From the NCBI GenBank assembly GCA_021778035.1, contig JAJYCY010000006.1:22715-71637 (forward strand): a stretch of 48,923 bases of DNA. Direction: 5' to 3'. Made by a program: the position numbers and the translations under genes. How positions within the stretch are numbered: position 1 is the first letter of the stretch; each line of letters opens with the position of its first letter. Under the pieces are notes generated by a model. The model was given only the letters and a program-made list of their open reading frames with translations. It was not told the origin of the DNA and searched no databases. Below are positions 13,838-17,856 of this stretch, piece after piece. Origin of the DNA: Pseudomonadota bacterium. GTDB taxonomy: Bacteria; Pseudomonadota; Gammaproteobacteria; Acidiferrobacterales; UBA6901.

Positions 13838-14572
13838 CTAGTGGCGTGCCCAGCGCCGCACCGATGCGGCGTGGCGGCGGCTCACGTCCAGCTTCCGGTC
13901 GAGGCCTTTCAGGCTCACCTGCCAGGTGCCGGCCGGGCTCTTTTCGATTCCCTTGATATAGCCGGTCGCGACCAGCGCATTGCGATGGATGCGCAGAAAC
14001 GCCTTTTCGCCGAACTCCTTTTCGAGATTGACCAGTGAATCCTCGATCAGGTGCTCCTCGTTCGGGGTGCGTACCGTGACGTATTTGCTGTCGGCCATGA
14101 AATACAGGATATCCTGCACCGGAACCAGACGTATGTTACCGCGCAGGTGCACGCTGATGTGGGTGCGGGCGGTCGGCTGGTCCTGTGCCTGATTGATCTG
14201 CCGCAGCTGCTGCAGTGTCAGCTTGTGTGCCTTCTCCAGTGCCGTCGACAGGCGTTCCTTGCGTATCGGTTTCAGCAGGTAGTCCACGGCATTGAGTTCG
14301 AAGGCACGCAGGGCATGCTGGTCGTAGGCTGTGGTGAATATGACGCTCGGAGGATTGTCGAGACCCGTCAGATGCATCGCTGCTTCAAGTCCGTCCATGC
14401 CCGGCATGCGGATGTCCATCAGCAGCGCATCAGGCTTGAGTTCGTTGGTCCGTTCCACGGCCTCATAGCCGTTCATCGCCTCGCCGGCGACAGTGTGCCC
14501 ACCGATCTCGCCCAGCAGTTCGCGCAGGCGGTCGCGCGCAAGCTTCTCGTCGTCAACTATAAGTACCTTCAT
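13838..14572 (-). CDS. algR: LytTR response regulator AlgR
   Basis: 244 residues. The receiver domain has DD at residues 7-8, phospho-acceptor Asp53 in LLMDIRMPGMDG, the Thr in VIFTTAYD and Lys in LLKPI. A C-terminal LytTR DNA-binding domain follows (HISVHLRGNIRLVPVQDILYF..., FLRIHRNALV). The ATG at 14572 has an excellent ACGGAGGAAAG ribosome site, and the ORF-track extension is upstream noncoding. The gene follows algZ after 188 bp. In Pseudomonas AlgR controls alginate, twitching and virulence; here the regulon is unknown. Synteny argH/algZ/algR/hemC supports orthology. Confidence 0.93.
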   Translation of the reverse strand: MKVLIVDDEKLARDRLRELLGEIGGHTVAGEAMNGYEAVERTNELKPDALLMDIRMPGMDGLEAAMHLTGLDNPPSVIFTTAYDQHALRAFELNAVDYLLKPIRKERLSTALEKAHKLTLQQLRQINQAQDQPTARTHISVHLRGNIRLVPVQDILYFMADSKYVTVRTPNEEHLIEDSLVNLEKEFGEKAFLRIHRNALVATGYIKGIEKSPAGTWQVSLKGLDRKLDVSRRHAASVRRWARH

Positions 14573-14760
14573 GGCTTTCCTCCGTAATTCCGGCAGGGCA
14601 TGACATGTATCGTGCCGCAATCCTGCCGACGATCGTGCTCCTTGTCCGACGTTCTCCGTAAAAAGCCGCATCAGCCCGTCGCAAACCGGCGGCCGGGGGA
14701 GGCCCTTCCTTGAGTTTCACTGGATGCCGCGTCCCGCCCGGTACAGGCCGGGAAGTCCCG

Positions 14761-15813
14761 CTATCCCCTTACGATTGGCATCTTCAGTTTTACGTGGTAC
14801 TGCTTTCCTTCCTCAAAAGTCTGCATGGTGGCAGTGCTGCCGAAATGCGTGCTCAGCCGCTGGCGAATGTTGTCCTGGGCTATCTTGTTTCCCTTGGAAG
14901 ACCGCTGGTTCTCGGTTTCCGGCAGCGGATTGCTGATCAGTACGCTCAGATAGTCCCCTTCGGCCCAGAGCTCGATTTTCAGCGTTCCGCCGTTGAACCG
15001 CGGTTCGATGCCGTGGTAGATGGCGTTTTCCAGCAGCGGCTGCAATGTAAGCGCGGGGATAAGGGCGCTGCGTGGCACGTTGCTCACGTTCCAGGATACT
15101 TTCAGGCGGTCCCCGAGGCGCAGCTTCTCGATCTCCAGGTACTGGCGTGATATCTCCCGTTCGGCCGAAATCGGCACCAGATTGCGCGCATCAGCAAGCA
15201 GGACGCGGAACAGGTCGGCAAGATCCTGCAGCGCGGTCTCGGCGCGCACCGGATCGCTGCGCATCAGGCTCGCGATGCTGTTCATGCTGTTGAACAGAAA
15301 GTGCGGACGTATGCGCGATTGCAGGGCCTGCAGGCGCGCCTCCTGTTCGGACCTGGCATCAGCCTCGGCCCGGTGCGACACGATGAGGTAGCGCAGTCCG
15401 AGCGCGCTGATGATCGCTCCGATAAGCAGGCTGCGGGCGAGCAGCGCCACGTGCCAGGAAGGCCAGCGCGTGCTGATCAAACCGAGATCATACAGCCCGA
15501 ATATGACAAGTTCGGTTCCAAGCGCAATCGCCCCGAGCAGCAGCATGAACACCACGATCGAACCGCTGGCGAGCGTCATGCGGCGTATGAACGGGTGGGC
15601 AAGTTTCAGGACGATCACACTGACAAACGAGATCATCAGCGCAAAGGCGGTCAGCAGATTGAGATCCTGCCACGTGCGCTCGTCGAAGACGGAATTGCGT
15701 CCGATCGTGATGATCACCGCGATGATCAAAGCGAGAAATATGATGCGCAGCGCATTGCTCAGCGAGGCAAAGTCGGGCAGGAAGTCCTGCGCAGAAGAAT
15801 TGGATCTGTTCAT
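14761..15813 (-). CDS. algZ: Sensor histidine kinase AlgZ (FimS), LytS-type
   Basis: 350 residues. Four membrane segments lie within residues 22-145, with no large periplasmic sensor. The His_kinase domain has the phospho-acceptor box SRIRPHFLFNSMNSIASL (His about 171) and N-box LQPLLENAIYHGIEPR. The G-box region is degenerate (SSKGNKIAQDNIRQRL), as in AlgZ/LytS proteins. It probably pairs with AlgR encoded next. The upstream region 15814-16161 may contain its promoter. The stimulus is unknown. Confidence 0.92.
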   Translation of the reverse strand: MNRSNSSAQDFLPDFASLSNALRIIFLALIIAVIITIGRNSVFDERTWQDLNLLTAFALMISFVSVIVLKLAHPFIRRMTLASGSIVVFMLLLGAIALGTELVIFGLYDLGLISTRWPSWHVALLARSLLIGAIISALGLRYLIVSHRAEADARSEQEARLQALQSRIRPHFLFNSMNSIASLMRSDPVRAETALQDLADLFRVLLADARNLVPISAEREISRQYLEIEKLRLGDRLKVSWNVSNVPRSALIPALTLQPLLENAIYHGIEPRFNGGTLKIELWAEGDYLSVLISNPLPETENQRSSKGNKIAQDNIRQRLSTHFGSTATMQTFEEGKQYHVKLKMPIVRG

Positions 15814-16161
15814 ATCCGGGTTACCGTGGAGTGGGGCCGTGCTGAATCATGGCGCAATGTGCAGCCGGACTGTCCTGCCGGTCCAGCCTGCGTCGCACCC
15901 CGGATACCGGGAACCGCTTGCAGGGCGCGCAGACAATCGTGCCCTCGTCCCCTGGCGCGGTGGCCGCGGGGTGTGGCCGGGCACCCGTGGGCGCTGCCCT
16001 GGCGGGGCCGCCGGTTTCGCCGCCATCCGGGATGGCAGAAGCTGGCCGGTACGCCTGTCTGACAGACACCAAAAACCTATTATATCTCAATTTGTTCTGT
16101 CTTTGTGCATGAAAAATAAGTATATTCCGTGCACGATATCCCGCGTGCCCGGGCCGGCGCC
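15814..16161. other. algZ upstream region with -10 box and palindrome
   Basis: The stretch holds no convincing gene. On the minus strand a perfect -10 TATAAT lies at 16079-16084 but lacks a recognisable -35 at the right distance, suggesting activator dependence. Just downstream at 16056-16068 is the palindrome TGTCTG-A-CAGACA. It would lie at or just after the predicted start of transcription (about 16072). A shorter inverted pair GTGCA/TGCAC flanks an AT-rich stretch near 16105-16134. If this promoter is used, the algZ leader is about 260 nt. Confidence 0.45.
16056..16068. promoter_or_regulatory. 13-bp palindrome TGTCTG-A-CAGACA, possible operator
   Basis: A perfect inverted repeat with 6-bp arms around a single base, sitting at the predicted algZ transcription start. 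It could be an operator half-site pair. The single-base centre is too small for an RNA hairpin of the full arms. No cognate regulator can be named. Confidence 0.35.
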
Positions 16162-16193
16162 AAAAAAAATGCCCCCGTCTTAGACGGGGGCAT
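16162..16193 (-). terminator. Strong intrinsic terminator (minus strand)
   Basis: The minus-strand RNA would form an 11-bp stem AUGCCCCCGUC / GACGGGGGCAU with a 3-nt loop, followed by eight U (the A-run 16162-16169). The plus-strand reading has no U-tract, so the direction is clear. There is no minus-strand coding gene upstream of it until past argH, which points to a noncoding transcript ending here. Confidence 0.85.
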
Positions 16194-16280
16194 GAAGACC
16201 TGGTTCGGCATTCGGGGTGGGGGTGCACAAAGGAGAGTCCGAACCAGGGAAACACCGACTGGCTGATCTTCGACTCGTTC
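16162..16280 (-). ncRNA. Putative trans-acting small RNA in the algZ-argH intergenic region
   Basis: About 119 nt, read on the minus strand. The core is a perfect 10-bp stem CCUGGUUCGG / CCGAACCAGG (16239-16248 with 16199-16208). Its 30-nt loop contains UCUCCUUU and CACCCCCACCCC, that is, anti-Shine-Dalgarno and C-rich sequences of the kind exposed by many regulatory sRNAs. An outer GAAGA/UCUUC helix can close the structure, and the strong terminator follows at once. A minus-strand -10 TATAAG at 16287-16292 would start transcription near 16280, but its -35 is poor. No family was recognised. The 5' end is inferred; the 3' end is well supported. Confidence 0.55.
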
Positions 16281-16297
16281 CACAAGCTTATACGAGC

Positions 16298-16325
16298 TTA
16301 AGATGTATTAACACTAGCCTATAAT
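16298..16325 (+). promoter_or_regulatory. argH promoter
   Basis: TTAAGA (16298-16303), 16-bp spacer, perfect TATAAT (16320-16325). Transcription would start near 16332, giving an argH leader of about 127 nt (16332-16458) in which I see no conserved element. The promoter overlaps the predicted promoter of the divergent small RNA, so the two may interfere. Confidence 0.55.
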
Positions 16326-16458
16326 ACCCTTCCGCAACAATGCTCCACCGACAGCCGGACAGAGCGCACGGATAAGCGGGACTGCATGCGTGTCGCACAC
16401 CTGTACCGTATTCCGGACGGGCAATTCCGGGGCGATCCAGACAGGACGATGATGCGGT

Positions 16459-17856
16459 ATGACTACTGACAAGCTTTGGGATGGTCGATTCCGTGAACCG
16501 ACGGATGCGTTCGTGGAGGCGTTTACCGCTTCCATTCCCTTCGACCGGCGGCTTTACCGCCAGGACATAGCGGGTTCCATCGCCCATGCGACAATGCTGG
16601 CGCATGTCGGGGTGCTTTCCCCTGCGGAGCGGGATGCGATCGTCAACGGACTGATCGAGATCGAGGCTGAAATCGAATCCGGCGCGTTTGAATGGAGCGT
16701 GGCGCTCGAGGATGTTCACATGAACATCGAATCGCGCCTGATCGCCCGCATCGGCGAGGCCGGCAAGAAACTGCATACCGGACGCTCGCGCAATGACCAG
16801 GTGGCGACGGACCTGAGGTTGTATCTGCGTGACGGAGTCGATGAGGTCAGTGTTGCCATCGCCCGGGTGCAGGAAGCGCTGCTTGTCATCGCGGAACGCG
16901 AGGCCGAGACGATCATGCCAGGATTCACCCACCTGCAGGTTGCGCAGCCCGTGACCTTCGGGCACCACATGCTGGCATGGTTCGAGATGCTGCAGCGCGA
17001 CCGGACGCGGTTTGCCGATTGCCGCCGGCGCATCAATGTCATGCCGCTCGGCGCGGCAGCGCTGGCGGGGACAAGCTATCCGATCGATCGTGCATTCACG
17101 GCGCGCGCGCTCGGGTTCGAGGAAGTGGCGGAAAATTCGCTGGACGCTGTTTCCGACCGTGATTTCGCGGTCGAATTCACGGCGGCAGCGGCAATCCTGA
17201 TGGTCCATCTGTCGCGTTTTTCCGAAGAACTGATCCTGTGGTCTTCCAGCCAGTTCGATTTTGTTGAGCTGCCCGACGCCTTCTGCACCGGATCGTCGAT
17301 CATGCCGCAGAAGAAGAATCCGGATGTCCCGGAACTGGTACGCGGCAAGAGCGGCCGTGTTGTCGGGGACCTGGTCGGTCTGCTGACTATGATCAAGGGT
17401 CAGCCACTGGCCTACAACAAGGACAACCAGGAGGACAAGGAGCCGCTGTTCGACGCCCTCGATACCGTTCTCGGAAGCCTGCGTGCCTACGCGGACCTCG
17501 TGCCGAACATCAGCCTCAGACGGCAGAACATGCTGCGCGCCGCGCAGCGCGGATTTTCCACCGCCACCGATCTCGCGGACTACCTGGTCCGCAAGGGTGT
17601 CGCGTTCAGGGATGCGCATGAGGTCGTCGGAAAAGCGGTGCGCCACGGCATCGACAGTGGCAAGGATCTGGCGGAGATGACCCTGGCGGAACTGCAGGGT
17701 TTTTCGACGTCGATCGCTGCGGATGTTTTTGACGTCCTGACTGTGGCCGGATCGGTCGCGTCCAGAAACCATTTCGGCGCCACCGCGCCCGAGCAGGTGC
17801 GTCAGGCGGTGGTCCGCGCCCGCGGACGGCTCGCAGCCGCCGCCGGAAAGGGCTAG
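16459..17856 (+). CDS. argH: Argininosuccinate lyase
   Basis: 465 residues, the usual length. It cleaves argininosuccinate to arginine and fumarate in the last step of arginine synthesis. The fumarase/aspartase signature [16 protein letters not shown] is present with its mobile catalytic loop, as are [20 protein letters not shown] and TPGFTH-like [12 protein letters not shown]. The ATG at 16459 opens the conserved N-terminus [13 protein letters not shown] 494-residue minus-strand ORF over the gene is a shadow. The same window carries argB, but the two are unlinked. Confidence 0.98.

Follow-up and report, generated by a model that had tools for sequence, protein, structure and literature searches.

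A conserved small-RNA gene, probably under AlgR control, between argH and algZ in the order Acidiferrobacterales

The minus strand of the argH-algZ intergenic region very probably carries a genuine small-RNA gene, as judged from the DNA itself. In the best reading, to which we assign a probability of roughly 0.78, it encodes an AlgR-activated, probably Hfq-dependent, trans-acting sRNA, the C-rich loop of which would pair with G-rich ribosome-binding regions; the sequence itself shows the gene together with its conservation and structure, and how the boxes at its promoter are arranged. The unannotated sRNA gene put forward in the original prediction gains strong support from covariation, an invariant loop core, a promoter, a terminator, synteny and the lack of a match in Rfam.

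Within the window (i.e. the whole analysed stretch of 48,923 nucleotides), the RNA gene is divergent from argH (16459..17856, plus strand; Pfam Lyase_1 and ASL_C2) and has downstream of it, on the same (minus) strand, the sensor histidine kinase gene algZ (fimS; 14761..15813; Pfam His_kinase PF06580, E 2.1e-23). The presumed activator, a response regulator with a LytTR DNA-binding domain (Pfam Response_reg and LytTR), is encoded by algR (13838..14671, minus strand, start codon not settled). Of 110 class loci examined, 96 have the divergent argH-algZ pair, and the gaps are mostly short. In three genomes, algZ has a second algZ-like gene directly beside it, 35-39% identical to the query (G012:C1:636084-637103, G165:C29:6844-7860 and G281:C33:242267-243283).

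The core of the element is a hairpin (16199..16248, minus strand) recognized from the sequence, its fold and a 24-sequence alignment. Its arms, CCTGGTTCGG (16248-16239) and CCGAACCAGG (16208-16199), pair perfectly; the proposed 10-bp stem with a 30-nt C-rich loop was recovered exactly where it had been placed. The loop, which reads ACTCTCCTTTGTGCACCCCCACCCCGAATG on the minus strand (16238-16209), contains the C-rich, anti-Shine-Dalgarno-like sequence ACUCUCCUUUGUGCACCCCCACCCCGAAUG (feature 16209..16238, minus strand), the presumed pairing region, whose core is constant among homologues. The hairpin is followed by an intrinsic terminator (16162..16193, minus strand), also part of the original prediction, with an 11-bp stem (ATGCCCCCGTC, 16193-16183, and GACGGGGGCAT, 16179-16169) and U8; a terminator scan returned the same match, on the minus strand only. 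The terminator stem and the T8 run (16169-16162) overlap by one base, namely the first T. The region 16300-16162 folds with an energy of -52.4 kcal/mol, compared with -37.3 +/- 3.7 kcal/mol in dinucleotide shuffles (z = -4.1), and none of the 200 shuffles reached the native energy. The terminator, the promoter alignment and a covariance-model match (16254-16164, 106 bits) together delimit a predicted transcript of ~143 nt (16162..16304, minus strand), the 5' end of which (~16304) is deduced from the -10 element. The size initially proposed (~120 nt) is therefore corrected to ~143 nt in this genus, with a probable start at ~16304.

Of 60 related genomes, 54 contain the element according to a DNA search with a 191-base query. 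The records containing the loop motif, from whose names the order assignment of these relatives was taken, were named Acidiferrobacterales, Acidiferrobacteraceae and Candidatus Muproteobacteria, and some bore less specific names. In the 30 loci fetched, the flanking genes were argH, algZ or both wherever the stretch reached them. Among 24 distinct sequences, all cells of the main helix (100%) are paired and five of its 10 pairs show compensatory (both-side) changes, more than in the slid and shuffled controls, although such simple counts are inflated by kinship among the sequences. The loop core GUGCAC[C/A]CCCACCCCGAA is invariant across the same alignment, and the terminator is kept in the homologues. 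Conservation of the stem and loop in related genomes, which had been named as the check on the prediction, was thus borne out, and because the element is conserved in relatives it cannot be attributed to chance. One-base indels occur inside the conserved loop of the homologues, which means that there is no conserved reading frame or protein and that the element is counted as non-coding.

The covariance model revealed divergent homologues in two further families of the class, designated f64 and f116. Those of f64, as well as those of one f116 genome, are also located between argH and algZ, and in six of the eight f64 genomes sampled there are two tandem units, each with its own hairpin, loop and terminator. 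With these distant members added, covariation extends to eight of the 10 stem pairs, and double-change cells over the whole structure number 63, versus 14 in shuffles; the extended alignment was fitted to the covariance model and hence leans towards it. The distant members vary in loop length and in the UCUCC segment. No convincing match to the model was found in 100 algZ-upstream loci of the class lying outside the families with hits, and the weak class-wide matches were treated as look-alikes. One of these, a hairpin with a C-rich loop and a terminator (L040 1501-1591 and L039 2-92; 36.8 bits), is located near ruvB and belongs to another family; the L040 element lacks AlgR boxes. In one genome (G353), four sRNA copies are present on contigs C162 and C164, both with argH and algZ, which means either that the locus has been duplicated or that the assembly contains two strains.

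A trans-acting, Hfq-type sRNA that would mask G-rich ribosome-binding sites is suggested by the U-rich tail, the presence of hfq in the source genome and the conserved C-rich loop. The U8 tail suits Hfq, on which the predicted sRNA probably depends, and pairing of the loop with ribosome-binding sites is plausible. Limited searches for complementary sites identified no conserved mRNA target. Near-perfect complements of a 14-nt loop segment, sought in 17 genomes, were mostly the sRNA genes themselves, the remainder being scattered, and GTGGGGGTG before ATG was not clearly above the reversed control in 23 genomes. The start region of an HD-GYP gene, a striking candidate target in one genome, was rejected as it is not conserved in relatives. 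Pairing with the start regions of algZ or argH was no better than in shuffles in nearly all loci, and these two genes are not obvious targets.

The lack of a conserved hit in the target searches, together with a loop core that is almost invariant across the order, would also fit an RNA acting as a decoy, i.e. sequestering a protein via its C-rich loop instead of pairing with mRNA. We consider this unlikely, although it survives better than the other alternatives: no candidate protein is known, and the variation in loop length and in the UCUCC segment among the distant members is more like that of a pairing seed. In RsmY and RsmZ, RsmA is bound by repeated GGA motifs; in the element, the GGA at 16240-16238 has both of its G's in the stem and, as read directly from the sequence, no GGA is present inside the loop. 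For this reason the element is not a CsrA/RsmA sponge and lacks the repeats of the RsmY/RsmZ type. What it would share with these RNAs, the levels of which are affected by AlgR (PMC4064291), is that they are sRNA outputs of a two-component system.

The preferred reading, an mRNA-pairing sRNA activated by AlgR, draws its regulatory part from the promoter. Promoter alignment revealed two AlgR/LytTR-type boxes on the minus strand, CCGCTTATC (16371..16379) and, 12 bp past it, CCGGCTGTC (16350..16358), followed after a further 9 bp by the -35 sequence TTGTTG (16335..16340, minus strand), the position of which is conserved across the order, and by a -10 sequence, TAGTGT (16311..16316, minus strand), assigned by alignment; the spacer is 18 bp in the window versus 16-17 bp in most homologues. 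The pattern CCGNYYRTC-N12-CCGNYYRTC (with at most one mismatch) occurs upstream of the RNA in 30 of 31 loci of the order, and in those 30 no second box pair was found at this stringency in the same fetched stretch. The pair ends 9 bp before the -35, which is TTGTTG in many loci, and a -10 of the TAnnnT type follows. All nine copies examined in f64 (before both tandem units) and f116 have the same promoter layout, with one to three box mismatches. The AlgR core described in Pseudomonas, CCGTTCGTC, is compatible with CCGNYYRTC, although the sites mapped there are not always paired (PMC4064291); LytTR-domain regulators typically bind paired sites separated by 11-13 bp, often situated ~10 bp ahead of the -35 (PMC6193735).

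The box consensus was drawn up after inspection of these same loci, and the main independent check is therefore provided by matches at fimU. A search of 41 genomes for the box pair recovered many sRNA promoters, and among the other readable matches five were at genes for minor pilins of the FimU/GspH type; in Pseudomonas, fimU belongs to an operon under positive FimS-AlgR control (PMC5979040). The fimU boxes overlap a likely reading frame, the exact box-pair pattern shows only a modest excess over the reversed control genome-wide, and several of its matches are at places without an obvious promoter. At the FimU loci L241, L242, L243, L247 and L249, AlgR-type CCGTTYRTC boxes, in many cases two pairs of them, directly precede the prepilin site and share its reading frame (peptide P-F-I/V). 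In three checked by eye, the stretch from the last box to the prepilin motif contains no start codon; the apparently fixed codon choice suggests a constraint at the DNA level. Another box pair (G017:C1:3039785-3039814) lies ~300 bases before an HD-GYP gene and may hint at AlgR control over cyclic-di-GMP turnover.

In the order as well as in two other families, paired AlgR-type 9-bp boxes lie at a constant distance from the promoter. They are good sequence evidence that AlgR drives the sRNA gene, and uphold the link with the AlgZ-AlgR system that had been suspected from gene position. Since the boxes are located between argH and the RNA, and the motif may be common to related regulators, the pair might instead serve argH or another LytTR regulator, leaving the RNA outside the AlgR regulon. 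We regard this as improbable given that the 9-bp distance to the RNA's own -35 is constant in almost all loci, that boxes also precede the second f64 tandem copy, which is cut off from argH by the first, and that the algR gene is next door.

The RNA gene has the sequence hallmarks of an independent transcription unit, namely its own promoter and intrinsic terminator. A probable separate -10 for algZ (TATAAT, 16079..16084, minus strand) lies downstream of the sRNA terminator, and a TATAAT or similar sequence is found ~70-90 bases past the terminator in many loci; hence algZ is apparently transcribed from a promoter of its own. The least probable alternative, that the element is a 5' leader or attenuator through which read-through from the AlgR-box promoter feeds algZR and gives autoregulation, fits the shared strand, the terminator preceding algZ and boxes suited to the operon's own regulator, but the separate -10, the ~350 nt between terminator and algZ in the window, the two complete tandem units of f64 (each with promoter and terminator) and a loop conserved beyond the needs of a simple terminator argue against a simple leader, though some read-through may occur. 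A palindrome, AAGTATACTT, is conserved between the sRNA terminator and the algZ -10 (L008, L010, L014 and others), ~15-60 bases past the terminator, and could be an operator or promoter element.

The sRNA family, very probably genuine and of a familiar kind, is apparently uncatalogued. At the gathering threshold, Rfam 15 recognized only a tRNA in the window, in agreement with the earlier statement that no known family had been recognized, and at relaxed thresholds the element was assigned to no family. The best sub-threshold match was anti-hemB (Burkholderia RNA 7, RF02837), in which a C-rich terminator likewise comes after a hairpin; it scored 24.3 bits, the gathering score being 49.5, and the alignment covers the terminator and six stem pairs of the element and skips the loop. 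The CcsR (cuckoo) RNAs of alphaproteobacteria have hairpin loops with the C-rich, anti-Shine-Dalgarno-like motif CCUCCUCCC. The loop of the element is similar in being C-rich and anti-Shine-Dalgarno-like, but it lacks CCUCCUCCC, only one hairpin precedes the terminator and the locus is different. In Pseudomonas aeruginosa, the gene for the PrrF2 sRNA is under direct AlgR control (PMC5790918), which is a precedent for the wiring proposed here; PrrF, however, is part of the Fur iron regulon, a single AlgR site is described at prrF2, as opposed to the paired boxes of the element, and the element has no Rfam match to PrrF2. A literature search found nothing tying argH, algZ and an sRNA together, nor anything on an Acidiferrobacter sRNA.

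Taken as a stand-alone small-RNA gene on the minus strand of the argH-algZ interval, the element would be switched on when AlgR, encoded just past algZ, binds the two direct-repeat boxes, 12 bp apart, upstream of the -35. Transcription would stop at the gene's own intrinsic terminator, and the rigid 10-bp stem would display the 30-nt C-rich loop, in which CUCUCC and CACCCCCACCCC would pair, most likely with Hfq, with G-rich ribosome-binding regions of mRNAs encoded elsewhere, so that these would be repressed while AlgZ-AlgR is active. In this scheme, the binding of AlgR and its activating effect, the need for Hfq and the way in which the RNA acts are predicted.

The RNA is probably an undescribed arm of the AlgZ-AlgR sensing system. 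More broadly, we see about even chances that AlgZ-AlgR pilus and surface signalling is wired to a dedicated, adjoining sRNA throughout the order and in two or more other families, with AlgR activating promoters directly and repressing a second set of genes via a single RNA whose C-rich loop is almost frozen. If true, AlgZ-AlgR, known chiefly from work in Pseudomonas, would gain an RNA output, and an sRNA family absent from Rfam 15 would be conserved throughout an order whose members are mostly uncultured; for these bacteria the paired boxes offer a concrete AlgR operator consensus and the frozen loop a testable seed for target finding.
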